Source of the DNA: Candidatus Ruminimicrobiellum bubulum
GTDB taxonomy: Bacteria; Elusimicrobiota; Endomicrobiia; Endomicrobiales; Endomicrobiaceae
NCBI GenBank assembly: GCA_017651625.1
Contig: JAGCCP010000003.1
Coordinates: forward strand, 1-51,037
Reading direction: 5' to 3'
DNA length: 51,037 nucleotides
Below are positions 4,118-40,552 of the stretch, one piece after another (the first letter of the stretch is position 1; the number at the start of each line of letters is the position of its first letter). The translations under genes were made by a program, and so were the position numbers. The notes beneath the pieces are model-generated. The model made no database searches. It was given only the letters and a program-made list of their open reading frames with translations, and was not told the origin of the DNA.

Positions 4118-4136
4118 AACTATATGGTTAATACAC

Positions 4137-5015
4137 TTACAGAAGTGTACTGTTTTTTTCTTCTATTTGTCTTTTTTTTGCTTCCAATGCTTCCAGAACG
4201 GTGTAAGGAACTTTCATTTTTCCGATTAAAGGAGTTGCATTTTTACCATAAGCTCCATGACAATCCGAACCGCCGGTTGCTATTAAATTCATTTCTTCGG
4301 CAATTGATATAAACTTCTTAACTATATGTTGCGGGTGACTGCTGTGCCAAGCTTCTATTCCCATAAGTCCGTCGTTAATAAGACCTTTAAAAATATTTTT
4401 GTTGCTGTAATGTCCGTAGTAAGGATGTGCCAATACGGGAATACCGCCTGCTCTTATAATAAGAGATATGGCATCTTTCGGAGATATATAGTGTTTCGGG
4501 ACATAAGCGGGTTTATCCAACCCTAAATATTTTTGAAAAGCTTCCGATATGGAAGAAACATAATTTTTTTCAAGCATTGCTTTGGCAAAATGTAATCTTC
4601 CTATAACTTTATCACCTACACCCGAAATTAATCCTTCGGGATCCAACTCTATATTTAATTGTTTTAATTTTTCGAATATATCTTTTGCTCTTTGAATTCT
4701 TACCTTTTTAAATACGGACAAAGCTTCATTAAAAGATTTTGACTTCCAGTTTACATAATATCCCAAAATATGCATTTCGGTTTTCGTTACATTATCCAAT
4801 TCGGCAGATAATTCTATACCGGATATAACTTCCATCCCGTATTTTTTACCGGCATCAACGGCCTCTTGTACACCGTCAACAGTATCATGATCGGTAATAC
4901 TTATCGCAGAAAGTCCAACCCTTGAAGCATACTCTACTACCTGCTCCGGTGTGAAAATTCCATCAGAATAATTGGTGTGTATATGTAAATCAACAAAAAA
5001 TTCTTTTTGAGACAT
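4137..5015 (-). CDS. PHP-domain phosphoesterase (TrpH/RNase AM-like)
   Basis: A metal-dependent phosphoesterase of 292 aa. All PHP motifs are present: DLHIHTNYSDG (His11, His13, Asp18), ITDHDTVDG (Asp42, His43, Asp44), GIELS (Glu68), LAHPYYGHY near 195 and GGSDCHG near 250. This set matches the TrpH/YciV group, which removes phosphate from nucleoside 3',5'-bisphosphates and trims short RNAs 5' to 3'; the exact substrate is inferred from the family. The ATG lies 2 nt after the phoH stop, and its GGAG ribosome site lies inside the phoH 3' end, so the genes are coupled. Confidence 0.85.
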   Translation of the reverse strand: MSQKEFFVDLHIHTNYSDGIFTPEQVVEYASRVGLSAISITDHDTVDGVQEAVDAGKKYGMEVISGIELSAELDNVTKTEMHILGYYVNWKSKSFNEALSVFKKVRIQRAKDIFEKLKQLNIELDPEGLISGVGDKVIGRLHFAKAMLEKNYVSSISEAFQKYLGLDKPAYVPKHYISPKDAISLIIRAGGIPVLAHPYYGHYSNKNIFKGLINDGLMGIEAWHSSHPQHIVKKFISIAEEMNLIATGGSDCHGAYGKNATPLIGKMKVPYTVLEALEAKKRQIEEKNSTLL

Positions 5016-9424: not shown

Positions 9425-12400
9425 TTATGCGGCAGCAAGCATTGCTCTGCAACCTGTAATAAGATCATCTTTTTTCTCTAAGGTTACTTGTTTATTTTTA
9501 TAATCGTCGCCATATATCAATATTATTTCTATTATAGTATTTATTGCAACATCCCTTCTTGCACTTTTTTCAGAATCAACTATTTTCCTTTCTGCCATTA
9601 TCTTACCTACAATATCTTCTTTAGTTCCGCTCATTTCTCTTTCTTCTTTATCATCTCTGGATTTATACATAAAATTCGTCCCGTTTTTATCACTGTTATC
9701 AAGTTGTAACATCAACATATGTCCTAACAATTTCTCTAAATTCTTATCTTTTAAACCGAACTCTTTATTCTGTTTCGACAAGGCAGTTTTTGCCAAAATT
9801 CTTTCTTTGATTATTTCCGTAAGCGGACCCTCTTTTAGATTTTTGCTTCTGCGAATAGTATTTAATATTATTCCTATTTCACTGTTTTCATCTATATTCA
9901 TGAGAAGAGAGTTTAATTTTATTTGTATATCTTCTTTCCTATATTCCTGTAACGGTTCTGATAAATTTAATTCAGGAATTTTATTGTAATCTATATTGTA
10001 TATTATCCTTTCCATATCTTCCGAAGTAAGTTCTCCCAATTTAAAATTCATTTTAATTTTGCCTAAGAATAATGCTGCAAATTCTCTTTGAACGGTTTTA
10101 ATATTCCTTTGTTTAACAAAATGTTCTATTAAAACATCTACACCTATCATTAATGGTTTATCCGAAGTTATTATTTCTCTCTCTATACTATCAGGATTTG
10201 TTAATATTTCCTTTATTTCTATTTCGTCTCCAACACCATAATCTTTTATTCTTATGCCATTTTCATCTCTTATTATTTCTCCGGATATTCCCATAGCCTC
10301 ATAATCCTGCACATCTTCATTTGTTCTGTCTATTTTATCCAAATAGATTTCTATACCGTTTTGTCTTAAATCGGATATATATTCTACACTTAAATTTAAT
10401 TTTTTGAATTGTGATTCTGTTATAACTTTTCTCATTCTTCCTTTTTCCAATGCTGTTTTCAACTTATCTAACTCTGTTTCGCCCATACTTTCTAATCCGA
10501 TTATCGTCTTTTGTCCGAACATTATTCCCATTGCTCTGTTTATTTCTAAGCACGACAACATAAAATCTTTTTCCTCTTGTTCAGTTTTTCCATATAATTC
10601 CATAGCACCTATTTCCAATAAACCTTCATTCAAACCTATTCCTTCTCCGTTTCTTACTATTATTCCATCCGTTTCTATTTCTCCGGTTATAGAAAGTATG
10701 GATTTTGCTTCTTCTTTTATTTGTTCCGTTTCGTGTATTGCTTTGGCTGTCTTTAATCTGGGAATACCTTTAGCGCCATAAACTAAAGTTCTACCTACTT
10801 TTATTTTGTATATACTTACACCATCTACTTTTATTCCGGTATTTATTAATTCATACTTATCTTTCAATTGCTCTATATCTTCAATAATATAAATATCTAT
10901 TAAATTTGATTGTTCTGACGGTTCAGCAGCTCTTTCCAAAATATCTACTAATTGTTCTATATCCGTCGATTTAACATCTTTATAATTTACAGCTACACGT
11001 TGTGCAATTTTTGACTTTATTCTCATAACAGCAGTTGCTATCTTATCCAACCTCAAAACAGATACAATATTGAACAAGGAATTATCGAAGATACTGCTAA
11101 CTAATTTAACCATATCAGCCTTAGATATTTTTAATTTTTGAGGATCCGGTAAAGCATCTTCTTTAAATTCGGGATCAAGATCCGAATACAAGATTATTTT
11201 ATCAGGATTGATATTATATCTTTCCATTAAAACATTTTTATGTTTTTGACTTACGACTATAAAATAGTTCGAATCGGCATGTTTTTTGGAAAATTCTTCA
11301 GAACGAAAACTTTCTATAAGATCCGGATCGACATCAAAATATTCAAGTATTTTTTTGTAATCTTCTCCCAAAGTAAGCATTGCATCAGTACTCTTTTCGG
11401 ACATAGGTAACAATCCTGCAGAAACCACGGAAATATTATCCACACCCAACTTTGATAATCTGTCTTCAAACAACAAATGAGAAACAGCGCTTCTGTTTAT
11501 ATTCGCCGTACATATAAAACATACCTGCCTTCTGTTATTTTCTTCAATATCTGATCTTAATTTTGATACTGCATCGGTGTTTTCTGTACTATTTTGTTTT
11601 TTGGAATATTCAAGTTCTCTCAACACTTCTACCGTCTTAACCATTCCGTCAAAAGACAATGAAAAGGTATTTTTGAAAAATTTTATTAATCCTTTACTTT
11701 CTAGCTTTGTGACTAAATTATTTTTTTTCATCATAAAATGATTAGGATTCGAAAGAAGTCTTTTCATTGTAGAAAGGAATCTCGTTTCATCTTCAATAGA
11801 ACCATCATCAGTAAAATATTTATTAAAGACATCTCTGCTTTGTATATTCAAACAATCGTATGTTCCGAAAACAAATACAACATGTTCCCATAATTCAGGA
11901 TGCTGTTGTATATATTCAAGTTCTTCTCTTGTTTTAAACGAATAATCATGTGAAAGTAAATTTCTCGGCAAGAAGAAAACTATTTTTTTGTTATATTCCA
12001 AAGTTAATGCTCTTACTTCATCCATATACTCTTCTGTTCTCTTTGCGGAATATTCCTTTCCGTAAAAATATTCATATCCTCTTTCCCAAGAAACCAAATC
12101 GTTTCTTTCGCAAATACCGCGAACTAAATTTACTTTTCTTTTCGATCCGTCAAAAATAGGAACATAACTTAATCCTAAAGCAAAGCCGAAACTATTTTCA
12201 ACAAATTTCATTTCATTTTCAAAAGATTGTCTGTGCATAAAATGGATATATCCACTTGGTCCTCTATACTTTTCAATTCCTTCATTATTTCTAAAATCTT
12301 TTCTCTTTAATTTACCAAGATATTTAACAAGATCGTAAATAGAAATAAATTGTGCACCGTTAAGTCTTGCCTGTTCTACAAAATCCGACGGGATTTCACT

Positions 12401-15400
12401 ATCTTTTATTTCTTTACTTAAATTTATCGGCTTTAAAATATCAGACAATGGATTATAGAACAATTTTACTTTTTCGGAAGTATCCATCATCGAGTCTACA
12501 TTGTCCATTTGAAGCAAATAATCTTTGTTATTTGTTAATACGGCAAAGAAATTCCATAAGAAATGAATTACGGCTCCCGAAACAACTGTAGATACTATAC
12601 CTATTGTAGAAGTTATTATGGTAATAATAAGAGGCGACATAAACACAAATTTCGATATAAAAGAAATATTATCGTATAATGCAGAGGATGTGACTCCCAT
12701 AGAAATTAGTCCTATACCTAAAGCCATCATTCTCAGTGCCGTAACGGTTAACCCCATTGATACCGATAATTTACTATGCCCTGACAAGAATTTTTTCGAG
12801 AAGAAAGAGTATCTTTCAATTTTTACACCTTTCAGTAAACCTTTGAGAGTGTATCTGTAATTGCTTGCTTTTTCATCTATAATTGCCATATCTTCAAAAG
12901 TAAGTTCTTTTTCGGTTTTACCGGTCTCCTTCAAATATTCTTTTTTATATTTTTCAAATCCCAATCTATATAATTCCTTAACCGTAGAATCACTTTGTAA
13001 TGCAACATCTGTAATCGAAACATTCTTTTCGGATTTTTTATAATCTTGTTCCAAATGATATAACTCCATATCTACTTTTTCTCTTAAAGTTACATCTGCT
13101 TTTCTAAATTTACTTTCGCCCACATTGTATTCTTCATTGAAATCGTATTCTCTTATCGGATTAAGAGTCATTATTTCAGTACTCTTACTGTCACCATTGA
13201 TCATAAGATGTGCGGATATTGCTAAAGTTTCTTTATCTTTATCAAGCTCTAATTCTTCAGATTTTGGTTTGTTGTAAACAGAAAAATCTCGTATATTCTC
13301 GTTTGTATCTAATTTAAGATATAATGCTACGGGTTGTTCAACTTTTCCCAAACTTCCGCGAAGTAAAGCATTCTTCAAAATTTCCTCTAAGAAGAAATCT
13401 ATACCATAATCCGTATATTGTGAATAATCTACAGAACTCTTGAAAATATCTGATACCTGGAATCTGTTTGAAATTAAAACTGATATTTTTTTATAAATAT
13501 CTAACAACTGACTAGGTGTTAAATCCGAAGTTTTAAAACCTTCTTTAAAGAAATGAAATACTATCAATTTTTTGTTTAATGCAGCATTTTTGATAAGATG
13601 ACAAATTCTATCAACATCATCATCGAGATATACATCAACAAAACCTTCTGTTCCCGTATCAGCATTTATATCCTTTATTTCTTGATCAGAAAAATTAACA
13701 TTATTTTCTTGTGATCCTTTTGGTGTTCCGTCAAATGCCAAATTACTGATTGTCACACCATCTTTAAACACTATACCGAAGACATCTCCGTTTTCATCAT
13801 AATTAACACTTTCTATACCATATAGAGAATACTCATCTTTAGATATTTCTTTTTTACCTTCTTCATTAAGTAAAATTTGATCACCTACGACATACAAAAC
13901 ATGTGTTTGTTCTGAATTTATATTTACAACTATATCTTGATTACCAAGTATTTTGGTATTTATTCCTACTTTACTTGACTCTATTATCTGATTTACAGGA
14001 ATAACTTTAACTTTTGTCTTCGCCTTTTTGCTTTTTGCGGTTCTTTGATTTTTATCTAACAATTCCATTAAATCATCTACAGACATAGGATTTTCCGTAT
14101 CAAAACCTTTAAAATTATCAATTAAATCCGTAAGTTTTAAATTTTTTATCGATGGATCTCTTCTCTTAAAAGCAATACCATGCAAAGCGGATATAAATTC
14201 GTGAGAAAACTTTGTTACTGTTTCGGTAGTAACATCCATACCTTGAACTCTATCATCTCTCGGGAAAGAATTATTTTTTATATTTTTTGTGGTTATTACA
14301 GGTATTGCAATCATGCCATCTTCCATATCTCTTGATGATGGGAACCAATATCTTGAGAAATGATGATGGACAATTTCACTACCGCCTGTTTTTACTTGTA
14401 TTTTTACTCTGTTTATATCGTATATATCAAAACCTCTTCCCGTATTGTCGGAAGGTAATTCCGGTCTTATTATTATTGGTCCTGCTCGTTTATCCGGAAT
14501 TATTCCTGCTACCAAAGTGTTTATCAAATATATTTCACCAAAATAACCTCTCAAATCCGTACATGTTGCTTCATAAAGTCTTTTTGAATATCTTTGTTCT
14601 ATATAAGATAACAAGTCTCCTAAAGTTGCATTGGGGCCTAAAGCCTTATCATAAACTCTCATAAATGTTTCTATTGCCATAGCAAACAATATCGGATGTT
14701 CTTTTAAATTTTCCATCAAACTCTTTTTAGGATCTATTGTAGTTCCGGTAATCTGTGAATTTTTGTTCTTTAATAAAGAAACAACGTAATCCGGCAATTC
14801 TTTACTAAAATCTATTCCTTCTACTTGCTCTTTAGATAAACCGGATCTTAAAAGAACATCTTTTATCTGTTGTTGATTTATTTCTAAAGAGCTATCAAAA
14901 GAATCTTTAGACTGTGCCAACTTTGTAAAACTTTTTATTATATCATCTAACGAATATCCCTTAGGCTGACGAATATCTTTATTGTTTACATGAGTATTTG
15001 TAGAAGAACCTGATGTTGTTTTTTTCGATTTGCTTGCTTTCTTCTTTTCTTTTTTGTTTTTCTTTTTAGATTTAGATGATTTTATTTTTTTAGAACTTGT
15101 TTTTGCCTTAGGATAACCATCATCTTCTTCATCAACATCAACATCTACATCTTCGTCTGTTTCCTTAACAACATTATCACCTTCTATCACTTCAATTTGA
15201 GAAACATATTCTTCATCTGAAATACTGCCGGATGTTGTTTCTGTTTCCGATTGAGAATCATCTGTTATTTGTTCTTCTTGTATTACTTCCAATTCCGAAT
15301 TATTATCAAGAGTTGTTACAGGTCTTACTTGAACGATGTAAATGATGTCATCTTTTATTAAAAATTCTATATCTACGGGAACCCCTTCAACTCGTTCCAA

Positions 15401-21400: not shown

Positions 21401-24400
21401 TTGTTCTTCCAATGCGGATATATATATTTCGGTTGCTATCCTTACAATATAATCAAAAACAGTACTATTATAATTCATCTTATTTGTATCGATAATACCG
21501 CTAATAAACCTTGATATTGATAAAGCCATGTAATATTTTTGAATTGTTGTTGTTTTTTCATTAAAGAAATCTTGCAAATGTTTGTCTATAACAATATTAA
21601 AAGTATTGTTAAAAAATATTCTTAATCCCAACATATCGTTTTCGGTTTCGATTCTACCTATTTTTAACTTTAATATTTCTCTCATTAAACTTGTCATTTG
21701 AATTAAATCTTCTTTTGTCTTTATAAATTCAACAAAATTAACATTATAATTTTCTTTATCGGCTTTTAAGGTTCTCATCTCGACGCTGACAAAATCTTTG
21801 ATTAAAGGTTCTATTTCTTTTTCATCGTAATTATATTCTTTAAAAATTTTACTTATTGTTGATATATCACTTAATATTTTATTCTTTTGTTTTAATGATA
21901 AATTAGTATCGGTTAAAACTTTTTCATCTGCATACGAACCTCTCGGTAATACTTTACCTTGCTGAATAGAAGTTTGTCTCTTTAGAGTTGTTATCGGTCT
22001 TACTTGAACAATATAGATGATATCATCTTTTATTAAAAATTCTATGTCTACAGGCATTCCTTCGACTTGTTCAAGCCATTCCATTATTTTTGTTAATTGT
22101 TCAAGTTTTTCTTTTGTTAATGTCTTTGTATTTGTATAATCTCCGTCTATTTTTGCTCCGTTTTGTATATCTATGGTAAAAGTATATGGCGTTATTCTTC
22201 CGGAAACTATATCTTCACCTTGTCCGTTTATAACCTGTATTATTCTATTTCCATCATTATCTTCGCTCATCATAATTCCTGCTTTATCGGCATCTATCCA
22301 TTCTTCTATCAATACCGCAGGTTTTATAACACTTGAAGATTTCGACATATACTCTGCTGCTCTTCTGGAGAAGAAAGATAACAACGTATCTTTTACGGCT
22401 TTATTAATATTTTCATATTGTATCGAGCCATAACTTTCAGCTATACCGGCTGCAGAATATTCTTGAGAGTCTTCACCAACACCGGACGATCTTACTATCA
22501 CCTTCTTACTTCTAAATAATTCTAAATTCTCTTTTCCTATATATTCTGCTATTTCTTCTTCAGAAAGATTTTCTACTACAATTCTCAGTTCAGACATTAT
22601 ATCTTGAACATTTATAAACTTTTCTTCTTCGGTATAGAATTCATCTTCAACAGTTGCTTTCAATTCTTCGTACAATTCCACATATTTTTCACCAAGCAAT
22701 TTTTCTAAAATATCAAAACCTATAACTACTCCATCGGGGACCGCAACATTTTTTATTCCGGTTTCTTTCTTTAATTGTTCCAACAATAAAAATAATTTCG
22801 ATTGATTTGCGGATTTTGTTCCTACAATTGAAGAATCAAGAGACTGTTTTTCTCCGAATCTGTATACTGAATTTATACCGGTATGTTTAATAAAATCGGT
22901 TATTTGTAAAACTTTTTTTACAATTATTCTAGGTGTTATTACAGAAGGTTCTTTGTTGTAAGTTTCTGTTACATCCAACAAATCTTCAAGCCAAGAATTG
23001 TCTGCAGATTGATAGTATATATATTCTATAATTCTATCTATCATACTACTTTTTTTATATCTATTAATAAATTCTTTTACTTTATCTGCATCTTGTTTAT
23101 CTATATATTTTTGTAATTCAAATAAAATATTTCCCGTTCTTCCTTTTTTAAACAATTTACCTTCAAATAATGTTATTTTGCTATTTTGAGTGTCTATTAA
23201 TACTATATCGTTAGGTTCTAATTCTATTTCCCTTTCTTCCATCTCCAATGTTTCCAAATTTCCGTCACGAATGACCTTGCCTTTCGGTTGATAAAATTTT
23301 ATTTTCATCTTTCCATCGGTCATTTGAGAATTATTTACTATCATCGCCGTCTTTTTATACTCTCTCAACACTATACCTGCATGACTGGAATATGAACCGC
23401 CGGTAAACAAAGATAAATCATATTTAGATGCTTCGGTAACATTCTCAGGACTTGCATAATTATCAACATATATACCGAATGCATTTCTCTTTTTATACAT
23501 TCTTGCAAATATTGTATTTTTTTGTTTTTCAGGCAAAGAAATTATGGTTCCATATGCAATAGGAGAAATATTTCCTGTTATTTCTTCCGATAATTTAGTT
23601 CTATAATTTAAAATTTCCAAACTTGTTAATTCTTCGGGATAAACTACTTCATAGCCTTCGGTTATAAGAATTTGTTCCAATTGCTGTAAATTTAGATTTA
23701 TTCTTCCGGATTTATTATTCATTGTTTCCGGATAACCTACAAGCTCACCGGATGTATATCTTATAATCCCATTCTTATCGGTTAATGTTGTTATCGCTAA
23801 AAATTCTCCTTTTGTATTTTCATTTAATCTACCGTTATTTAACTTCATATAGCCTGTCTTTACCACATAATCCCCTATCTGTCCGACAGTTCTAAAATTC
23901 ATATCCTGTTCAGATAGCTGAGATATTATTGCTCCCTGATTTAACATTTCGATTTCAATCTTATTTCCCGACTCACTCTCAAGTATTTTTTTTACTTTTG
24001 CCGTCATATCCGCAATAGGATTGTATTCTTTGTTCCTTTCAAGTTTGCCTTTTTCGTTTATTCTTAAATATCCCGTAGCAAAAGCTTGTTCTATAGGCTT
24101 ATTTATGTATTCGTCTATCGTGTTTTGACCATATGTCTTTATAAATCCTAATCTAAAAGATCCCACTTTTAAAAATGTCCAAAAACCTTTTTCTTTTCTC
24201 GGTATTAAAGGTAAATCTAAAGATTTTAAAATTCTGTTAAGATTTTTTCTGCTGTTAAATGTAGTTCTAACAAAATTTCCCCTTATAAAACTCAGAGCAT
24301 AGTATCTTGAATATATATCCATTATAGCTTGTTTTGCTACATTAACATTTTGTTTAATTTGAAAATCACTATGTATAAGATTATTTAAAGAAGCCGCATT

Positions 24401-27400
24401 ATTGAAAAGAATTACCGCTTGTTTTGCCAAGTTATTAAAATCCGTATCTTTGGATAATCCCGTATCCTTATCGAGTCTGGCAACTATACCTACAGGTAAT
24501 CTTCTACTTTCAAAATCTTGAAGAGATTGTGTAACTCTGAAGCCCTTACTTTCTAAAATATCCGTCAACATTTTAATTCTGATTGTACTTCCGTCATCTA
24601 TCGCACCTTCATGAAAATCTACAAGTATAGATTTAGATTCTTCATTAAAATCTATAAGAATTCTAACTGAATGTGCACCTAATTTTGCTACCCATAAGAA
24701 TATGTTATCTTTTATGAAGATAGGTGTATCGGTATTTGTCGAAAAATCAGGATTTTCGGCTAAATCTGATAACAATGCGATTATTTGAGGATTTAGTTTT
24801 TCCGAAGATAAATTATAGGCCGACATCAAATTATTATTTTTAGAAATCAAAATATTATGTCCCGCCTGTGTGTAGTTGCCTATTGAACCCATTGTTTCTG
24901 TTAAAAATGAAAAGTTTGCCTGTTGATGTATTCTATTAACAAGTGTATTTATTGTAGTTATACCATCCGCAAATTTTCCTTCGGATTCATATTCTATAAG
25001 TTTTTTTTGGTCTTCAATAGTAGTTTGACCTGTTTTTACTTTGTCCAATATATCTTTAAGTGCTGCCCTAAAATAACCGACATTATGAATATTTATCTGT
25101 TCCAAACAATCTATCATAGTATATATGTGTTGTACCACATCATCGAATTGTGATGAAAAATTATTCACTTGCGCAAACTTACTTAAAATGTATAAGTTTT
25201 CATCTAAAAGTTTCATATATTCATCAAATTTTTTAATAATACCGTCAAGATTTTCCGTATCTACGGTATCTTTTGTCATGATATACGTCGGATTATGTTG
25301 TATAGGTTTTAATCCTCTTCCGGAAAGGAAGTTGAGTACACCGGTAAAAGAATATCTTCTGCTATCGAAAAACACATTAGGTGTTTGTTTTATCACCGTC
25401 AACCCTTTTTCTTTTCCAAATTCTTCCAATGTCACATTATCTTCGGAAGAATCAACAACTTTTTTCCTTCTCGAATAAATCATTCTGGGAGTTTTTGATT
25501 CCATTTTTTCACAAAACTCAACATCTCTCGACAATTTATCGAAATTTGCTTTTAACTCGGAATCAAACAAATCTTGTTTTAAAGCCAAATCTTGTGTAAA
25601 GTTATAAATATTTTCAAAAATCGGATCAGTTCCGTTTTCATTAACTCTCAGAACAACATGACCATTAACAATTTTCAAATATTTATTTTGGTGAGCAATC
25701 AACCTGTTATGTATTAAATCTATTAATTTGGTTAAAGCATATTTACCCTGATATGTATTTGCGGGAAGTTTTAAAATGTTAGTTTCAAAATATTTTTCCG
25801 CATTTCTGTATGAATCATATTTCGACACTATTACGTCTATAAGAATTTTAAATACAATATTATATCTTGCATCGTTAAGATCAATATTTTGCTCCACCAA
25901 ATAATTAAAAATAGTATCTGTATTGCTTGAATTTTGTTTAGATAGAATTTCCAATAATTTGATATGTTCGTTATTGTTAAGATCTAAATTTTGAATTATC
26001 AACATAATATTTGTATCACTTAACATATTTGTTTTGCTCGATAGAAAATCGGAGAGAATTTTTAATGTATCTTTATCATCAAAATTCATTTCCGATACAA
26101 GTTTAGAAAATAAGCTTTGGAAAGAAAGTAAATATCCGGCTTTTAATGCGGATTGTAAGATCAAATTCAAATGTTTTATATTTTTTAAATCAGACTTAGA
26201 TACAATTTGGTTCAATATATCATCGTTTATAAGTTGCAAGTCATATAATAAATTAAATTGATCTTCGTCACTAAAATCCACTTTTTCAACCACTGTGGAA
26301 CTAAGTTTAGCATTGTATTGATGTTGAGATAGTAAAGTTTTTATATCCTGTAAAACATTCTTATCTTTAAAATCCAAGTTATTTATCTGTTCATAATTTA
26401 TACTTTCGCCAAATATGCTCATCTTATTTTTCAAAATCATATTCAAAAATTTGTGTACAAACATACCAACGATAGTAGAAGCAATAATTACAACTGAAAT
26501 TTTAGGCATTAAAACGAAATATAAAAGATATGGAACAACCAACAATATCGTGGGCAAATATCTTTGTCTTGTTTGATTTATTGTTTCTGTTTCTTCTGCA
26601 AACTCTTTGAATTTTTCTTTTTGGCCTTCAGGAAAAATATTAAATAAAGTTGCTTTTAAAATATCAATTGTAGACCAATCGAGGTTATTTTGTTCTATCC
26701 ACGAACTTATATTATGAGCCCTTACAAATTGTATTTGGAAAACAAAAAATATTAGTGCACTTATAGCTGACATTCCGGGAACAAGAGATAAACATACAGG
26801 AAGTGTTCTAAATACCAGCTCTTCCCAAATATGAGGTATTTTGGATAATGTCTTGAAAAACATATTTCTGTCGGACAAAGGAGCAAATATCGAGAAATAT
26901 TCGATAATTTTTCTATTTGATCTTAGCCAACTTGCAGCTTGTTCATCGTAAGAAGTTTTTTTATCACTTGAAACTCTATAAAATTTACCTTTAAAATTAT
27001 CATCTACTTCAAAAGTTCTGTAAGGATTTTGGTTCATTAAAACATTGCTTTTGTGACGACCGCCTAATAATGCCAACTTCATTCTTATAATTCTCATCTG
27101 ACCGGATTCATCTATAGGATTATTTCTGTTATATATTCTAAGAGTTTTTATTTCATTCTCTTCATCCTTGTCCATGTAGACAAATATGGGTTTATCTAGT
27201 CCTGTATTACCATGCATGAAAGAATTTTCCAATATTTCCAGTAAGAAGAAATGAATATCATAATCCAAATAATCGGCATTTTCGGGAAGAGAAACAAAAT
27301 TATTCTTGTTCAAAGGTTTATCGGTATATATTTTGAAGAACATATCCCTTATAACATGGTATAATTTTTGTTGTTCCTCTCTATCAAGACTGGCAATATC

Positions 27401-29629
27401 AACCGGATCTCTAAATATCTGCAACACTATAAGTTTTTTGTTTGCTATTGCGTCTTCTAACGAATCTATAAAATTTTGATAATCTTTGTTTATATCTTCG
27501 AGATATATGTATGCACTTTCGGTTGCACCGGTATCTTCATATAAATCTTGTATATCTTGTTCGACTTCCCCATACTGTGCCGAAACTTTAAACAAAGCTT
27601 TTTGTAAACTCGGCAACATTCTTGAATAAATTTCGGCAGGTACTCCTCTTAAATCTTTCCCTTTTAGATCAGGATTGTTTTCTATATCAAAAATCATACC
27701 TTCACTGAAATATATTCCTTGTTTTACCAATTGTTCAGCAAGATTTAACATTATTTCGTCGGTTTTCGGCATTAACAATCCTCTTAAGCCTTCTTGCGGA
27801 ATAACATCCGATAATTGATCTACAGATGTTTCTATTACATTCTTAGCTTCAGTTTTAGTCTTTATATCCAAGTCTGTTTCTTCTTGTAACAAACTTAAAT
27901 CTACTTTTTTACCTAAAACTTTTTCCAATGTTTCCGTATTGTCGCCAACTAAATCCTTAACTATCGACAACAATAATTTTTGTTTATCAACATCAGATAT
28001 ACAAGATGCAATTGTATATGATAATGCTTGAGATTTTACCTTGCTTTGTAATCCTATAAGTTCAATATACTTATCGTTTGCCTGTTTTATGTCTTCATAT
28101 ATTTTCGGAGTTATTACTATTGTATTCACATCGTTTTTAGCTAATATATTCTCTAACTCGGTACTATGGAAACCTCCTGTTACGGCTATTATGACTTCTT
28201 TCGAATCTTTTAATATTTCTTCATCTTGTCTTATTTGATTACTTGAAATTAAATTTATTTGTTCATCTTTTAATAAATTTTTTACGAATATATTGTTTCT
28301 TTGGTCATTTATATCGTAATATTTATTTATCTCTTCAAAATCACATTCTATTTCTTTTATTCTATCCACGGCAGCATATTTGGCATAAATCTGTCTGAAA
28401 GTATCATAATTCTTTTCAAAATATTTCCAACTTGCATCGGTTAACTTATATTCCAAATAATCTTTGAAATATTTATTAAAATCCGATATAAAAGTTATTT
28501 CATATTCATCATTGTTATAAGAAAGTGCTTTTCTTATCTCTAATATTAATTCACTTTCTTCTTGAACAAGATCTATAGGATTGAGTTTTTTTGTTATGTA
28601 GTTTGTTTTGAGAAAATTATTTAATGATTTATATTTTTCTAAATTTATACCTTCTTTATCACTCAACAATGTTACTAATTCCAAAACTTTTTGGCTGTTG
28701 CTTAAATTTTCTGTTTCTTTCAGAAATTTTGTATATACAGCATACGGCAATTTATTTTTTAATTCGTTCACTACTATTTGTAACTGTTGAGTCACTTCTT
28801 TTAAGTTAATATCTTTTGAAACTTTTCTTAATGTTACGAAATTAGAGATGTTCGGATATTTTTCTAATTTTATTGCGGTAATATTATTATATCTGCTCGG
28901 ATTAGCATTTATATCTTTAACATATTTCAACATTTGTTTATAGAATGTTTTACTGTCTATCTTGTTCGTCGAATAATCTTCTATACTTTTACTAAATCTT
29001 TTGTTCCTGTTATTTACATATATGTTTTCCAATATATCTATTTCGTTCTCTACTTTCTTTATTATATCCTCATATCTTGCTTGATTTTCTATAATCCATG
29101 ATAATCTTCTTACGTTATCTTTATGTATCTGTTCTTCATCTATACCCTTTAATTCTACATTGTTATTTTTACTTGTTAATTTATAATACTCGCTTCCAGT
29201 AAGTATACCTTCGTTTAATAATTTTTCTATAACTTGTTTTCTTATATTTTCATCTTTTACGGAATTTAACCAACTTATGTCGATATCTCCGTATCCGCCT
29301 TCAACATAAATTTTATTCAGGTTATATTTTTCTGCGATTTCCGCAATTATTTTAGATATATTTCTTTGTGTTTGAGGGTGACAATGCAAATCTTGTATAT
29401 TTATTACCGTTATATTGCTGTTATTATCTTTACTTGATGTTATTTTCCCGTATTCATTACTTATACAGTCTGTTCTGTTAAAAACATCTTCATATTTTTG
29501 GTTAGAATTTTCTACCATAGAAATTGCATACAGATTTGCACCCAATGTCGATATCATAAAACAGGCAGCCGTAAAAACAGCACAGATTTTTATTGAATTA
29601 AATCTTCCCCTCAAAAATTTTATTATCAT
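9425..29629 (-). CDS. giant multidomain protein with duplicated CPBP-dikinase modules
   Basis: One uninterrupted frame of 6734 codons. I chose the ATG at 29629, which has CGGAG seven bases upstream and gives a signal/anchor (FLRGRFNSIKI then a hydrophobic run to LGANLYA); an ATG at 29659 lies inside a terminator hairpin. Domains in order: EreA/ChaN-like (65-510), GHKL-like (720-890), CPBP membrane protease 1 (925-1065), helical repeats, unknown conserved blocks, phosphohistidine domain (His2083), ATP-grasp (2260-2550), caspase-like (His2825, Cys2868), CPBP 2 (3040-3185), helical repeats, the same conserved blocks, phosphohistidine (His4306), ATP-grasp (4480-4775), acidic/Lys-rich hinge, PD-(D/E)XK-like (5068-5080), GHKL-like 2, decayed CPBP 3, LMW phosphatase (Cys6040) and a C-terminal 570 residues I do not recognise. 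The function is unknown. Giant ORFs are reported from Omnitrophota and related phyla; this arrangement is read here from motifs only. Confidence 0.9.
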   Translation of the reverse strand: MIIKFLRGRFNSIKICAVFTAACFMISTLGANLYAISMVENSNQKYEDVFNRTDCISNEYGKITSSKDNNSNITVINIQDLHCHPQTQRNISKIIAEIAEKYNLNKIYVEGGYGDIDISWLNSVKDENIRKQVIEKLLNEGILTGSEYYKLTSKNNNVELKGIDEEQIHKDNVRRLSWIIENQARYEDIIKKVENEIDILENIYVNNRNKRFSKSIEDYSTNKIDSKTFYKQMLKYVKDINANPSRYNNITAIKLEKYPNISNFVTLRKVSKDINLKEVTQQLQIVVNELKNKLPYAVYTKFLKETENLSNSQKVLELVTLLSDKEGINLEKYKSLNNFLKTNYITKKLNPIDLVQEESELILEIRKALSYNNDEYEITFISDFNKYFKDYLEYKLTDASWKYFEKNYDTFRQIYAKYAAVDRIKEIECDFEEINKYYDINDQRNNIFVKNLLKDEQINLISSNQIRQDEEILKDSKEVIIAVTGGFHSTELENILAKNDVNTIVITPKIYEDIKQANDKYIELIGLQSKVKSQALSYTIASCISDVDKQKLLLSIVKDLVGDNTETLEKVLGKKVDLSLLQEETDLDIKTKTEAKNVIETSVDQLSDVIPQEGLRGLLMPKTDEIMLNLAEQLVKQGIYFSEGMIFDIENNPDLKGKDLRGVPAEIYSRMLPSLQKALFKVSAQYGEVEQDIQDLYEDTGATESAYIYLEDINKDYQNFIDSLEDAIANKKLIVLQIFRDPVDIASLDREEQQKLYHVIRDMFFKIYTDKPLNKNNFVSLPENADYLDYDIHFFLLEILENSFMHGNTGLDKPIFVYMDKDEENEIKTLRIYNRNNPIDESGQMRIIRMKLALLGGRHKSNVLMNQNPYRTFEVDDNFKGKFYRVSSDKKTSYDEQAASWLRSNRKIIEYFSIFAPLSDRNMFFKTLSKIPHIWEELVFRTLPVCLSLVPGMSAISALIFFVFQIQFVRAHNISSWIEQNNLDWSTIDILKATLFNIFPEGQKEKFKEFAEETETINQTRQRYLPTILLVVPYLLYFVLMPKISVVIIASTIVGMFVHKFLNMILKNKMSIFGESINYEQINNLDFKDKNVLQDIKTLLSQHQYNAKLSSTVVEKVDFSDEDQFNLLYDLQLINDDILNQIVSKSDLKNIKHLNLILQSALKAGYLLSFQSLFSKLVSEMNFDDKDTLKILSDFLSSKTNMLSDTNIMLIIQNLDLNNNEHIKLLEILSKQNSSNTDTIFNYLVEQNIDLNDARYNIVFKILIDVIVSKYDSYRNAEKYFETNILKLPANTYQGKYALTKLIDLIHNRLIAHQNKYLKIVNGHVVLRVNENGTDPIFENIYNFTQDLALKQDLFDSELKANFDKLSRDVEFCEKMESKTPRMIYSRRKKVVDSSEDNVTLEEFGKEKGLTVIKQTPNVFFDSRRYSFTGVLNFLSGRGLKPIQHNPTYIMTKDTVDTENLDGIIKKFDEYMKLLDENLYILSKFAQVNNFSSQFDDVVQHIYTMIDCLEQINIHNVGYFRAALKDILDKVKTGQTTIEDQKKLIEYESEGKFADGITTINTLVNRIHQQANFSFLTETMGSIGNYTQAGHNILISKNNNLMSAYNLSSEKLNPQIIALLSDLAENPDFSTNTDTPIFIKDNIFLWVAKLGAHSVRILIDFNEESKSILVDFHEGAIDDGSTIRIKMLTDILESKGFRVTQSLQDFESRRLPVGIVARLDKDTGLSKDTDFNNLAKQAVILFNNAASLNNLIHSDFQIKQNVNVAKQAIMDIYSRYYALSFIRGNFVRTTFNSRKNLNRILKSLDLPLIPRKEKGFWTFLKVGSFRLGFIKTYGQNTIDEYINKPIEQAFATGYLRINEKGKLERNKEYNPIADMTAKVKKILESESGNKIEIEMLNQGAIISQLSEQDMNFRTVGQIGDYVVKTGYMKLNNGRLNENTKGEFLAITTLTDKNGIIRYTSGELVGYPETMNNKSGRINLNLQQLEQILITEGYEVVYPEELTSLEILNYRTKLSEEITGNISPIAYGTIISLPEKQKNTIFARMYKKRNAFGIYVDNYASPENVTEASKYDLSLFTGGSYSSHAGIVLREYKKTAMIVNNSQMTDGKMKIKFYQPKGKVIRDGNLETLEMEEREIELEPNDIVLIDTQNSKITLFEGKLFKKGRTGNILFELQKYIDKQDADKVKEFINRYKKSSMIDRIIEYIYYQSADNSWLEDLLDVTETYNKEPSVITPRIIVKKVLQITDFIKHTGINSVYRFGEKQSLDSSIVGTKSANQSKLFLLLEQLKKETGIKNVAVPDGVVIGFDILEKLLGEKYVELYEELKATVEDEFYTEEEKFINVQDIMSELRIVVENLSEEEIAEYIGKENLELFRSKKVIVRSSGVGEDSQEYSAAGIAESYGSIQYENINKAVKDTLLSFFSRRAAEYMSKSSSVIKPAVLIEEWIDADKAGIMMSEDNDGNRIIQVINGQGEDIVSGRITPYTFTIDIQNGAKIDGDYTNTKTLTKEKLEQLTKIMEWLEQVEGMPVDIEFLIKDDIIYIVQVRPITTLKRQTSIQQGKVLPRGSYADEKVLTDTNLSLKQKNKILSDISTISKIFKEYNYDEKEIEPLIKDFVSVEMRTLKADKENYNVNFVEFIKTKEDLIQMTSLMREILKLKIGRIETENDMLGLRIFFNNTFNIVIDKHLQDFFNEKTTTIQKYYMALSISRFISGIIDTNKMNYNSTVFDYIVRIATEIYISALEEQKDRTVFDRNTRVISLASVSSYDQSFEEAGLKKLLEILNMSDSDKVSLINSDIVPAIEAKKEFLRQISELKSEETVFISFDGHGFEDSLSVGFDSDISSSELAKALIQAYNNGMDLNKITINLSSCYSWYFANNVYDHLNKEFDKLERQGKVVNRQFPTIWASAGHETLYGYSTYYRENGQLTVMSNEWNGLISSIADKNPDKITINDIFSAMATVGYSNPTLFVYSDFIKRLIEEGTEQISEIADIEDISKGKETFKEKVNRLLYPNREWKNHISFFELSIFEPLKDFNPFFKFLNKTAPIWEEIFFKALPMSLTLLPFMSMFVSPVLLILFAILQVQFVKAHNVTLWIKQNMSQQDGFKWTTLDILKATLFNVFPSEELKRDFDFEQKINYDEETHSRILPTILLSVPYVYSILFSSNIFGFVLSFVVGMLLHTSFDFYSLFNRIFEEEREENAFWAKLASRENKDIPTIAQYLSERDNIDLKEDQEQEKLAEILDENILSAKEATDFVNKIDLNDINQSLYLINIFAEQMKLATDNRRTIINTLIQKADFNNPNQLSFIRNLLLDEHSFGINIETAFMLVEKLDFHNENHIKILTDFLKAKTYNRSFQDIRLNNKIIEKIDVNDFKQLSLLELFSDVMDNELSKLISQFDFKENDKKHLEKFLMELSRFSVLHKKQSLEALLPNLNLQDSLEFKMFANIVEKEDYLNPVAVGMIFDKLNLKNEQHIKLVKNIINKSNVGLGILDSLIKYVDINSDLLKTISHNIFANNTRDSHLVLYGKIREKIKELNTIDESDKEKYEKAKYITQLLSNELILDMQQLLTDIQNNNIRANKDKMIVLLLSPQEFESILENIDLLSEYESILFESKQIVDNFTALKEQVSYFKKMRAGEITIQDFATKYNFDLSKQSPNVYFDSDRYSFSKILRLIPSKILRHKINSLEPTYFMSRNEIEKQGLKDVLRKFDSYMKLLDENMYVLNKFTNVTAFDSQFEDVVTHINQMISCLSSFNSSDASYFKRVLNDILDDIREGRTNITEQKSFSTGRGKYVGDITTIHRLINRIHQQANMDFVKNIRSTASLSMSKVQNVFVTKDDRTIKAYNLSENEIHPNIKKLLILLAENPDFSTYDNSQIFIKDNIFLWNGLLGDHSARVLIDFNRENENIFIDFTEAEKTPQSRSRILTLRRILSNFGFLTNLYNGEYNLVSNVSKDFGLTGDTDICEMAQKAMILLSNAASLYRENIPIQVIETASMGIMDLYRKCFFVSTDNNIVQTRVNDVKFFNKILNYLQLPTVPQSEPSMLSKIKAGFLFKRKVRTLGQNTIDEYINKPVEQSFAIGYLKLNEKGELERNYKYDPISMMKENLESILDKEPGQIEETDMLNQGAIISQIPERDLQFRTIGQIGGYVVKTGYMKLTDGRLGSKNKGEFLAVTTLTDKNGIIRYSSSELVGFPSSINTKTGRIGLNFKQLKSILENEDYVINVVENFTSGELLTYRNRLKESIAKTTTPTAYGTIISSSKELKSAIGTVNAEADNGGLFIDKYASPENVTDAVQYDMSLFTGGSYSSHAGIVLREYGKTAMIVNDSRIVDGKMRIKIYQPKGETNKGGILESRELQESEIELQPNDIVLIDTQNNKMMLFESKLFKKGKVGNILFELQEYIDNQDAEKVKEFINRYKNSTVIDKIIEYIYYQSADNSWINDILYDYNEQGLNVVLSSNKIQRIIDQIELKFNWFLPHSGSSNVYRFGEKESLDISKVGTKSANQSKLYLAVEQLKRETGIDNVRIPNGIAIEYTILEDLLGEEYKTLYSQFESIVKNKNNTEQDLQKLDEIVSQIIDLINGISNSRIKEYIGKKNLKSLKNKLSIVRSSGVGEDGKSYSAAGIAESYGEVEVEYIPRAIRDVLSSFFSQRAIDYMMNSGNIIKPAVLIEEWVESDKAGIIMSENSEGNGIIQVVNGTGEDIVSGRKTPYSFVIDLESGEKIDGNYTGKETLTSDMVLKLTKIMQWLERVEGVPVDIEFLIKDDIIYIVQVRPVTTLDNNSELEVIQEEQITDDSQSETETTSGSISDEEYVSQIEVIEGDNVVKETDEDVDVDVDEEDDGYPKAKTSSKKIKSSKSKKKNKKEKKKASKSKKTTSGSSTNTHVNNKDIRQPKGYSLDDIIKSFTKLAQSKDSFDSSLEINQQQIKDVLLRSGLSKEQVEGIDFSKELPDYVVSLLKNKNSQITGTTIDPKKSLMENLKEHPILFAMAIETFMRVYDKALGPNATLGDLLSYIEQRYSKRLYEATCTDLRGYFGEIYLINTLVAGIIPDKRAGPIIIRPELPSDNTGRGFDIYDINRVKIQVKTGGSEIVHHHFSRYWFPSSRDMEDGMIAIPVITTKNIKNNSFPRDDRVQGMDVTTETVTKFSHEFISALHGIAFKRRDPSIKNLKLTDLIDNFKGFDTENPMSVDDLMELLDKNQRTAKSKKAKTKVKVIPVNQIIESSKVGINTKILGNQDIVVNINSEQTHVLYVVGDQILLNEEGKKEISKDEYSLYGIESVNYDENGDVFGIVFKDGVTISNLAFDGTPKGSQENNVNFSDQEIKDINADTGTEGFVDVYLDDDVDRICHLIKNAALNKKLIVFHFFKEGFKTSDLTPSQLLDIYKKISVLISNRFQVSDIFKSSVDYSQYTDYGIDFFLEEILKNALLRGSLGKVEQPVALYLKLDTNENIRDFSVYNKPKSEELELDKDKETLAISAHLMINGDSKSTEIMTLNPIREYDFNEEYNVGESKFRKADVTLREKVDMELYHLEQDYKKSEKNVSITDVALQSDSTVKELYRLGFEKYKKEYLKETGKTEKELTFEDMAIIDEKASNYRYTLKGLLKGVKIERYSFFSKKFLSGHSKLSVSMGLTVTALRMMALGIGLISMGVTSSALYDNISFISKFVFMSPLIITIITSTIGIVSTVVSGAVIHFLWNFFAVLTNNKDYLLQMDNVDSMMDTSEKVKLFYNPLSDILKPINLSKEIKDSEIPSDFVEQARLNGAQFISIYDLVKYLGKLKRKDFRNNEGIEKYRGPSGYIHFMHRQSFENEMKFVENSFGFALGLSYVPIFDGSKRKVNLVRGICERNDLVSWERGYEYFYGKEYSAKRTEEYMDEVRALTLEYNKKIVFFLPRNLLSHDYSFKTREELEYIQQHPELWEHVVFVFGTYDCLNIQSRDVFNKYFTDDGSIEDETRFLSTMKRLLSNPNHFMMKKNNLVTKLESKGLIKFFKNTFSLSFDGMVKTVEVLRELEYSKKQNSTENTDAVSKLRSDIEENNRRQVCFICTANINRSAVSHLLFEDRLSKLGVDNISVVSAGLLPMSEKSTDAMLTLGEDYKKILEYFDVDPDLIESFRSEEFSKKHADSNYFIVVSQKHKNVLMERYNINPDKIILYSDLDPEFKEDALPDPQKLKISKADMVKLVSSIFDNSLFNIVSVLRLDKIATAVMRIKSKIAQRVAVNYKDVKSTDIEQLVDILERAAEPSEQSNLIDIYIIEDIEQLKDKYELINTGIKVDGVSIYKIKVGRTLVYGAKGIPRLKTAKAIHETEQIKEEAKSILSITGEIETDGIIVRNGEGIGLNEGLLEIGAMELYGKTEQEEKDFMLSCLEINRAMGIMFGQKTIIGLESMGETELDKLKTALEKGRMRKVITESQFKKLNLSVEYISDLRQNGIEIYLDKIDRTNEDVQDYEAMGISGEIIRDENGIRIKDYGVGDEIEIKEILTNPDSIEREIITSDKPLMIGVDVLIEHFVKQRNIKTVQREFAALFLGKIKMNFKLGELTSEDMERIIYNIDYNKIPELNLSEPLQEYRKEDIQIKLNSLLMNIDENSEIGIILNTIRRSKNLKEGPLTEIIKERILAKTALSKQNKEFGLKDKNLEKLLGHMLMLQLDNSDKNGTNFMYKSRDDKEEREMSGTKEDIVGKIMAERKIVDSEKSARRDVAINTIIEIILIYGDDYKNKQVTLEKKDDLITGCRAMLAAA
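11140..11530 (-). other. giant-protein domain: low-molecular-weight tyrosine phosphatase
   Basis: The P-loop CTANINRS matches C-x5-R-S with Cys6040 and Arg6046, followed by the usual helix. VVSAGLLP and the acid loop LPDP near residue 6162 complete the family pattern. All three catalytic groups are present, so it could be an active phosphotyrosine (or phosphoarginine) phosphatase. Confidence 0.8.
12540..12800 (-). other. giant-protein domain: degenerate third CPBP-like membrane segment
   Basis: Hydrophobic segments end in VIHFLWNFF, which matches the CPBP motif 3 (H-x3-N). The EE-x3-R and F-x3-H motifs of the two earlier copies are absent. It is preceded by a GHKL-like domain, as in copy 1, so it probably descends from the same block. 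Confidence 0.5.
13080..13440 (-). other. giant-protein domain: second GHKL-like domain, decayed
   Basis: FFLEEILKNALLRGSLGK parallels FFLLEILENSFMHGNTGL at 27200-27255. The downstream LNPIREYDF parallels QNPYRTFEV. The HG of the N-box has become RG, so ATP binding is doubtful. Confidence 0.5.
14150..14660 (-). other. giant-protein domain: PD-(D/E)XK nuclease-like
   Basis: YFGEIYLIN (Glu near 5019), GFDIYD (Asp5068) and IQVKTGG (Gln5078, Lys5080) follow the pattern of restriction-endonuclease folds that use Q-x-K in place of E-x-K. No other copy occurs in the protein. The nuclease assignment is by motif only. Confidence 0.5.
14990..15300 (-). other. giant-protein hinge: acidic then lysine-rich low-complexity
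   Basis: A Glu/Asp/Ser/Thr-rich run with alternating Asp-Val is followed by a Lys/Ser-rich run, about 100 residues in all. It separates the duplicated dikinase half from the C-terminal nuclease/phosphatase half and is likely disordered. Confidence 0.8.
15310..16190 (-). other. giant-protein domain: PPDK-type ATP-grasp, copy 2
   Basis: KVGTKSANQSKL, IVRSSGVGEDGKSYSAAG, ESYG, PAVLIEEW, GEDIVSG and PVDIEFLIKDDIIYIVQVRP follow the order of the PEP/pyruvate-binding (PPDK_N) family. They match copy 1 at 21985-22860 residue for residue over most motifs. Confidence 0.85.
16460..16805 (-). other. giant-protein domain: phosphohistidine swivel, copy 2
   Basis: YASPENVTDA then LFTGGSYSSHAGIVLREYG, where His4306 is the phosphorylated histidine by comparison with PEP-utilising enzymes (GG-x2-SH-x2-I/L-x-R). 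It lies N-terminal to the ATP-grasp domain, the order of glucan, water dikinases rather than that of PEP synthase. Confidence 0.85.
19080..20020 (-). other. giant-protein region: helical repeats, copy 2
   Basis: About 8 repeats of roughly 35-40 residues share a core like (I/L)D(L/F)N(N/D)..H(I/L)K(I/L)L..(L/F)L. They look like HEAT- or LRV-type alpha-solenoid repeats. A shorter set occurs at 25780-26400 after the first CPBP domain. Confidence 0.6.
20070..20520 (-). other. giant-protein domain: CPBP membrane protease, copy 2
   Basis: IWEEIFFKALP (EE-x3-K in place of R), FVKAHN (F-x3-H) and LLHTSFD (H-x3-D) within hydrophobic helices are the three CPBP/Rce1 motifs. The Arg to Lys change in motif 1 separates it from copy 1. 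Confidence 0.75.
20760..21380 (-). other. giant-protein domain: caspase-like (clan CD) peptidase
   Basis: VFISFDGHGF gives the catalytic His-Gly (His2825) after a hydrophobic strand. ITINLSSCYSW gives Cys2868 after the next strand, 43 residues on, the usual caspase/CHAT-type spacing. The domain is present once and lies between the two CPBP-dikinase modules. Confidence 0.65.
21985..22860 (-). other. giant-protein domain: PPDK-type ATP-grasp, copy 1
   Basis: IVGTKSANQSKLF, VIVRSSGVGEDSQEYSAAG, PAVLIEEWIDADKAGIMMSE, GEDIVSG and FLIKDDIIYIVQVRP are the PPDK_N motifs, including the arginine of VRSS and the final E/QVRP metal and phosphate contacts. Confidence 0.85.
23130..23475 (-). other. giant-protein domain: phosphohistidine swivel, copy 1
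   Basis: NYASPENVTEA then LFTGGSYSSHAGIVLREYK with the acceptor His2083 (codon 23381-23383). The following lysine-rich stretch through LFKKG and the YYQSADNSW segment are also nearly the same in copy 2. Confidence 0.85.
23640..23960 (-). other. giant-protein conserved block of unknown fold, copy 1
   Basis: LNQGAIISQ, RTVGQIGDYVVKTGYMKL, GEFLAITTLTDKNGIIRY and SGELVGYP form a beta-rich segment before the swivel domain. The same block recurs at about 16960-17290 (copy 2). I do not recognise the family. Its place fits a substrate-recognition domain. Confidence 0.6.
25780..26400 (-). other. giant-protein region: helical repeats, copy 1
   Basis: About 5 repeats of roughly 37 residues with cores such as NLDLNNNEHIKLLEIL and EMNFDDKDTLKILSDFL, directly after CPBP copy 1. 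They match the longer repeat set after CPBP copy 2. Confidence 0.6.
26430..26850 (-). other. giant-protein domain: CPBP membrane protease, copy 1
   Basis: IWEELVFRTLP (EE-x3-R, near 935), FVRAHN (F-x3-H, near 968) and FVHKFLN (H-x3-N, near 1058) lie within predicted membrane helices. All three Rce1/Abi protease motifs are intact. Confidence 0.8.
26960..27480 (-). other. giant-protein domain: GHKL-ATPase-like, copy 1
   Basis: FFLLEILENSFMHGN resembles the N-box of the histidine-kinase/RsbW ATPase fold (E-x3-N-S/A-x2-HG). A clear D-x-G-x-G box is not seen, so nucleotide binding is uncertain. Confidence 0.45.
28090..29450 (-). other. giant-protein domain: EreA/ChaN-like
   Basis: VINIQDLHCHPQTQ near residue 83, IYVEGGYGD about 30 residues later and VTGGFHSTEL near 485 follow the His/Glu/GGFH pattern of the erythromycin esterase/ChaN/TIKI-type superfamily. 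A helical insert lies between. Hydrolase activity is possible but unproven. Confidence 0.5.
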
Positions 29630-29651
29630 TTTTTTCTCCGTAGCAAATAAA

Positions 29652-29690
29652 AAAGACATACATCATTTTTACATGATGTATGCCTTTTTA
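29652..29690. terminator. bidirectional hairpin terminator before the giant gene
   Basis: CATACATCAT (29657-29666) pairs with ATGATGTATG (29673-29682) around a 6-nt loop, with a T-run on both strands. The small membrane protein gene stops inside the loop (TAA at 29669-29671). On the minus strand only 27 nt separate the stem from the giant-gene ATG, so any giant-gene promoter lies upstream, within the small gene, or the hairpin acts as an attenuator. Confidence 0.7.
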
Positions 29691-40551: not shown

Positions 40552-40552
40552 A

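Follow-up and report, generated by a model that had tools for sequence, protein, structure and literature searches.

Giant Elusimicrobiota proteins with a TIKI/Ere-like front module, exchangeable enzyme cargo and a short conserved C-terminal tail

What a bacterium might do with a single frame of 20.2 kb is the question raised by the window, the whole stretch of 51,037 nucleotides analysed here, which corresponds to contig C9 in the 1.88-Mb genome (G000) of an uncultured gut bacterium. Its minus strand carries an open reading frame (9425-29659) of 6744 residues counted from the first in-frame ATG, and of 6734 residues from the ATG at 29629, the start adopted in the preliminary description and the one preceded by GGAG six bases upstream; residue numbers below refer to the 6744-residue frame. 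The preliminary description knew of no described protein with its domain set and suggested that it joins proteolysis, phosphorylation and dephosphorylation in a self-processing or signalling machine at the envelope. We find it to be no unique machine but one of about 17 paralogues with exchangeable cargo.

Integrity and domains of the giant frame

Full-length orthologues are encoded in two other assemblies, G003 (6758 residues, 76.6% identity) and G010 (6615 residues, 64-76% identity), and the recurrence of the same chain rules out an assembly artefact as the origin of the frame. Between G000 and G003, dN is 0.135 and dS 0.70 (dN/dS 0.19-0.24), and dN lies well below dS in every 500-residue segment. 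We conclude that the giant is under purifying selection along its whole length and is not decaying, so that the claim of one intact, selected frame of 6734 codons stands. An orthologue in a further genome, G007, lacks about residues 3188-6205, comprising the second dikinase, nuclease-like, second GHKL-like and LMW-phosphatase parts; because it nevertheless keeps both ends, the domain set does not form one obligate machine.

Table 1. Coordinates of features of the giant gene in the window, with large proteins encoded near giants
Feature	Position	Strand	Basis
Giant CDS, 6734 aa from ATG 29629	9425..29629	-	orthologues, dN/dS 0.19-0.24
GGAG ribosome-binding site, 6 bases before ATG 29629	29636..29639	-	sequence
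Basic and hydrophobic N-terminal segment ending NLYA, Sec signal-peptide-like (aa 11-48)	29516..29629	-	hydropathy
N-module, TIKI/Ere-like, large helical insertion (aa 49-700)	27560..29515	-	alignments A2/A9, AF2, fold search, motif spacing
IQDLHCH, Asp90-x-His92 of putative active site	29378..29398	-	invariant in 55 sequences
YVEGG, Glu120, 28 residues after His92	29294..29308	-	invariant
TGGFH, distal His498 of putative active site	28166..28180	-	invariant
Module labelled GHKL-like in the preliminary description (aa 700-890)	26990..27562	-	recurrence only, no Pfam/PDB support
Dikinase unit 1 (aa 898-2566): CPBP-like, helical region, unassigned domain, PHis, ATP-grasp	21962..26968	-	46% identical to unit 2
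CPBP-like membrane domain 1: EELVFR, FVRAH, HKFLN	26390..26872	-	alignment A6 motifs
Phosphohistidine swivel domain 1, GGSYSSHAG, His2093, approximate edges	23120..23692	-	motif, profile
ATP-grasp (PPDK_N) domain 1	21980..22831	-	Pfam 4.7e-33; AF2 region matches rifampin phosphotransferase
C13/caspase-like domain, His2835 (DGHG), Cys2878 (SSC)	20570..21682	-	Pfam 2.8e-4, GPI transamidase 1.6e-4
Dikinase unit 2 (aa 3003-4791)	15287..20653	-	comparison with unit 1
CPBP-like membrane domain 2: EEIFFK, FVKAH, HTSFD	20060..20542	-	alignment A6 motifs
Phosphohistidine swivel domain 2, His4316, approximate edges	16451..17023	-	motif
ATP-grasp (PPDK_N) domain 2	15305..16150	-	Pfam 2.5e-29
Module labelled PD-(D/E)XK-like in the preliminary description, GFDIYD...IQVK motif	14174..14869	-	alignment A4 motif
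Second GHKL-like module (aa 5325-5511)	13127..13687	-	repeat of aa 700-890 module
Degenerate third CPBP-like membrane segment, HxxxN sole motif left	12530..12772	-	hydropathy, motifs
LMW phosphatase domain, CTANINRS P-loop and DP motif	11120..11524	-	PF01451 (LMWPc) above cut-off; alignment A7
C-terminal module, in paralogue subset too, no known family	9461..11044	-	alignment A8
C-terminal tail ITGCRAMLAAA-COOH; [IM]-L-x-[AS]-A ending common to whole family	9428..9460	-	alignment, genome-wide pattern
Large proteins with autotransporter-like C-termini	G003:C15 129207-133958; G010:C43 70956-75086; G000:C37 44313-48056		near giants

The signal or anchor proposed for the N-terminus is present as a hydrophobic segment, which recurs by hydropathy in all 15 paralogues examined, and the paralogue N-termini resemble cleavable signal peptides with AYA, LHA and SQA sites. 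The region behind it, which we call the N-module, has no Pfam match. Its motif D-x-H...28...E...GG[FY]H is kept phylum-wide, with a spacing of exactly 28 residues in 46 of the 55 sequences of alignment A9 and in 13 of 20 distant proteins. Bcr135, HopBA1 and ChaN have been named as relatives within the TIKI superfamily, with His/Glu pairs at H85/E113 in Bcr135 and H3902/E3930 in VvRRSP (PMC6254334), the same spacing of 28. An AF2 model of the N-module (pLDDT 83, pTM 0.75) places strands at 31-37, 43-50 and 74-79, then a long all-helical insertion, then strands at 448-455 and 472-478 (model numbering; add 40 for the 6744-residue frame). A Foldseek search with it gave a best E of 0.27 and nothing at E<0.001, EreC, Bcr135, HopBA1 and ChaN ranking 2, 3, 11 and 32. 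Like the TIKI/Ere superfamily (Bcr135, EreC, ChaN, HopBA1, VvRRSP), the N-module has a His and a Glu 28 residues apart after parallel strands and a distal His after the third strand. It differs in that, of the full TIKI set of two His and two Glu, both His and one Glu are invariant and the other acidic position is Asp, in a helical insertion of about 350 residues, in being the constant first module of giant chains and in a fold score that is non-significant. We take the N-module to be TIKI/Ere-like and a putative hydrolase, so that the EreA/ChaN-like start of the preliminary description is upheld by motif spacing and weakly by the fold search, and finds no counterpart in Pfam.

Domains of the window protein were called with Pfam and NCBIfam models, PDB profile matches and motif checks on alignments. 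The two phosphohistidine plus ATP-grasp pairs that had been described are there, in two dikinase units that are 46% identical over residues 1092-2566 and 3335-4791 and extend back to the CPBP-like segments. The phosphohistidine motif GGSYSSHAG, of the TGGxxSHA type, lies at residues 2087 and 4310, once ahead of each ATP-grasp domain, and the swivel region matches the mobile domains of PEP synthase and PPDK by profile (1.6e-9). The same order, phosphohistidine then ATP-grasp, is found by curated models in the paralogue on contig C2; Pfam gave no PEP/pyruvate barrel in the window protein or this paralogue, and no carbohydrate-binding module in the window protein. An AF2 model of the dikinase core from six sequences was poor (pLDDT 52, pTM 0.35), its top fold matches being ATP-grasp enzymes with rifampin phosphotransferase first.

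The LMW phosphatase was called correctly, the domain having a C-x5-R-S P-loop, a DP motif and a sufficient profile score. The call of a caspase-like domain also holds: the Peptidase_C13 score falls just below the Pfam cut-off, the same region used as a profile matches a GPI transamidase, and the His-Gly and subsequent Cys of the clan CD catalytic pair occur in that order, the DGHG and the Cys being kept in 13 relatives (H216, G217 and C259 invariant in alignment A3). The two proposed CPBP domains fared less evenly. EExxxR/K, FxxxH and HxxxN/D occur in order in both copies, copy 1 exactly and copy 2 with EExxxK, but 15 members of the giant family gave no Pfam or PDB match to CPBP; the segments are CPBP-like by their three motifs, and we do not assign them to the CPBP family. 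The GHKL-like module recurs within the protein and in paralogues, and has no Pfam or PDB profile match to a GHKL ATPase; the PD-(D/E)XK-like module likewise shows its resemblance at the motif level, with no Pfam or PDB profile match to such a nuclease, and we retain these two labels as names only. Pfam searches with alignments of the CPBP, GHKL and PD-(D/E)XK regions returned matches at chance level, and the C-terminal module had no PDB match. A role as an anti-phage defence protein found no support, PADLOC giving only weak matches (E 0.002 or worse).

Matching ends and exchangeable cargo

The window protein belongs to a family whose members have a signal-like segment, the TIKI/Ere-like module, exchangeable and often duplicated cargo and a conserved tail. 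G000 holds 17 N-modules (18 matched stretches, one gene being matched as two pieces), in ORFs that span 1020 to 6744 residues or run off their contigs, and the members whose frames were read add up to roughly 54,000 residues, or about 160 kb and 8-9% of the assembly, with two cross-contig joins inferred. The N-module was found in 47 of the 84 genomes of the order, many with 15-19 matches each, whereas few or no copies occur in the majority of genus g8 genomes and none in the single-contig genome G019. Eight more distant genomes contain 13-64 N-module stretches each, in frames of up to 13,472 codons. The relatives found through the N-module are Endomicrobia and Elusimicrobia MAGs, the nearest coming from sheep rumen and Candidatus Ruminimicrobiellum, so that G000 probably belongs with the rumen-type Endomicrobiaceae. 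One paralogue, G003:C11 (L154-L155), is at least 10,546 residues long, and a C-terminal fragment on contig C58 of G000 matches it in two places (60% and 84% identity), a result that points to long internal repeats and to a break in the assembly at contigs C7/C58.

All complete G000 members end in [IM]-L-x-[AS]-A-COOH or a close variant, such as MMAAA in the C37 paralogue, behind last 200 residues that are mostly unrelated; a typical tail reads [IVY][KRN]x[IM]L[AS][AS]A-COOH. In the 15 tails compared, Leu at -4 and Ile or Met at -5 are universal, Ala stands at -1 in 13, and hydrophobic residues are favoured at -8 and -11. The information content at positions -5 to -1 is 2.5-3.7 bits, the highest null value being 1.83. 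The strict pattern terminates 15 of the 127 ORFs in the sampled G000 DNA, and all 15 of these ORFs belong to the family. A genome-wide count, made in G000 with a DNA pattern and a frame check at every place, gave 32 places versus 13 for the reversed control. Ten are the ends of giants, including a previously unseen fragment of 3868 codons; at the other 22 the frame that would use the tail has at most 153 codons (at most 78 for strict [IM]L) and usually overlaps a longer frame.

In other genomes the tail is present on 16 of the 20 N-module ORFs that stop inside their locus; of the four without it by the loose pattern, one ends in TLRAG and two are fragmentary or frameshifted. Eight tailed ORFs elsewhere have no N-module, being left-truncated or, in one case, a piece downstream of a broken giant. 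Several members from distant classes carry a different tail, for example IDRIARIVASSA or IRHIAEVIAQQA, which may be the same signal.

Between these ends the cargo is mostly unrelated from member to member. Pfam identified phosphoglucose isomerase (PGI) with all four phosphoglucomutase (PGM) domains, adenosine deaminase with a methyltransferase-like stretch, an amylase domain with CBM48, calcineurin-like phosphoesterase, HD domains, a dCMP deaminase motif, two dikinase units and, in one member, an MFS transporter; hydropathy indicates multi-pass membrane segments in several members. The giant with PGI and PGM (G000:C54 257518-265432) adjoins an intact ordinary PGI gene, which rules out, for PGI, the idea that glycolysis in the cell relies on the giants alone. 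Ordinary PPDK-type genes also exist elsewhere.

Possible roles of the giants

Matching ends with different enzymes between them look like an undescribed way to export or sort very large proteins. Constant front and last residues, with cargo swapped freely between them, would meet the needs of a trafficking or assembly system, and on this ground we infer, with a confidence that leans only modestly in its favour, that the giants are Sec-exported enzyme carriers whose C-terminal tail acts as a recognition or sorting tag. The chain would be exported through Sec and its signal then removed, the N-module would hydrolyse or bind something in the envelope, and the tail would be recognised by a single shared partner that determines the destination of the cargo, candidates being a PDZ-type processing protease, an outer-membrane sorter or an assembly platform. 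For the window member this cargo would comprise two dikinase units, a caspase-type protease, CPBP-type membrane parts and an LMW phosphatase; in the dikinase units, ATP would phosphorylate the swivel histidine, from which the phosphate would pass to an acceptor. The site of action may be the cell surface or the interior of a neighbouring cell in which ATP is available. The topology is uncertain because ATP, which dikinases require, is presumably absent from the periplasm, because PGI and PGM are normally cytosolic and because one member includes an MFS transporter. It is mainly because a protein of exported type contains cargo that depends on ATP that we retain two rivals, delivery and cytosolic anchoring.

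ATP-requiring cargo would make sense where ATP is present, as it would be if the giants were MARTX-like multi-effector proteins that bring their enzymes into adjacent cells, whether gut protists or bacteria, to be released by the protease domains and to work there. Conserved ends around variable enzyme cargo suit such delivery, as do the caspase-like autoprotease that MARTX toxins carry and the scarcity or absence of copies in most g8 genomes. A TIKI-family protease is, in addition, a MARTX effector (PMC6254334). We nonetheless think delivery rather unlikely, since family scans, which covered the window and most of the G000 paralogues, showed no RTX-repeat or toxin-delivery family, the signal is of Sec type and not that of type I export, and housekeeping-type cargo such as PGI, PGM and amylase is unlike known effectors. 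Giant metabolic complexes in the cytosol or on the inner membrane, with an uncleaved N-terminal anchor and a tail acting as a turnover (ssrA/Tsp-like) or assembly signal, would accommodate the ATP-dependent and sugar-phosphate enzymes and the multi-pass segments, and tails ending in LAA or SAA resemble nonpolar degrons; but the N-termini look cleavable, intact ordinary PGI and PPDK-type genes are present too, and it would be strange for every member, and no other protein, to bear a degron, so that this arrangement also strikes us as fairly improbable.

The self-processing or signalling machine of the preliminary description draws on the fact that one chain brings protease, dikinase and phosphatase domains together. 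It explains neither the paralogues, whose cargo sets vary, nor the shorter G007 form, which is without much of the set, and the dikinases match small-molecule kinases. Signalling by phosphorylation and dephosphorylation does not follow from the domains, because those dikinases of the group that have been characterised use small molecules or glucans as substrates; we regard such a machine as very improbable indeed. RPH is one such characterised dikinase (PMC4844700). A bolder extension of the carrier reading, in which the N-module would recognise or cut the tail in cis or in trans, so that dozens of giants per cell would be processed, joined or displayed by one phylum-wide export-and-assembly system, is a distinctly long shot. 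If true, this would make the N-module/tail system a sorting mechanism of a new class, one that accounts for many Elusimicrobiota giants.

Known systems and genomic surroundings

The dikinase units share ATP-grasp and phosphohistidine domains with intact motifs with PEP synthase, PPDK, rifampin phosphotransferase and glucan water dikinase. Glucan water dikinase also has the phosphohistidine domain before the ATP-grasp domain, and PEP synthase and PPDK have the opposite order, with the ATP-grasp first and the PEP/pyruvate barrel last. The units of the giant differ from PEP synthase and PPDK in this order and in that no PEP barrel was found, and from the known dikinases in the domain that precedes them and in being two within one exported-type giant.

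A Sec signal, varied cargo and a shared C-terminal signal are already known in combination from type IX and PEP-CTERM proteins. Type IX CTD, PEP-CTERM/exosortase and type I C-terminal signals resemble the giants in having one C-terminal signal on varied cargo and many substrates per genome, and type IX and PEP-CTERM proteins also in their Sec signals. Unlike these sorting signals, the tail of the giants is about 8-11 residues long, has a fixed end and no membrane helix; conceivably it is a type I signal of the HasA kind. Unlike the substrates of all these systems, the giants have a conserved hydrolase-like front module, with no NCBIfam or Pfam match to a type IX CTD domain in the C-terminal slice of the window protein and no family of GG-rich calcium (RTX) repeats in the window or the scanned paralogues. 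MARTX and polymorphic toxins similarly combine conserved delivery parts with exchangeable enzyme domains; the giants differ from them in their metabolic-type cargo and in the outcome of the scans for RTX-repeat and toxin-delivery families.

Elusimicrobiota are rich in proteins of over 5000 residues with no assigned function, and giant genes occur in Omnitrophota as well, according to the available portions of two accounts, which describe no shared ends (PMC11573180, PMC12057145). The present family may account for many of the Elusimicrobiota proteins in this size class. No description of it was found in the journal papers searched; going by these, neither the tail nor the TIKI-like front module nor the giant metabolic cargo has been described before. 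Many of the huge proteins reported in PMC11573180 would gain a shared anatomy, namely a predicted hydrolase front, a short tail and swappable enzymes, in up to 64 places per genome. A single odd giant gene becomes the entry to a putative sorting system open to experiment, since the tail could be removed or transplanted and the predicted active site altered by mutation. Genus g8 and G019, from which the N-module is mostly or wholly absent, offer a useful contrast with their relatives in the search for partner genes.

Just upstream of the ribosome-binding site of the giant, a 10-bp hairpin (CATACATCAT/ATGATGTATG) is followed by a T-rich run (window 29649-29682, minus strand) and looks like a terminator or attenuator. 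The upstream in-frame translations of this region read RHTS.KNDVCLFYLLRRKNM in G003 and G010, which suggests that the DNA is conserved there. Elsewhere in the window, a TPR-repeat protein of 1467 residues is directly followed by an ankyrin-repeat protein (39244-44956, minus strand), and a similar large ORF lies near the giant in G003 and G010 too. The large proteins encoded near some giants (Table 1) have autotransporter-like C-termini that end in Phe.
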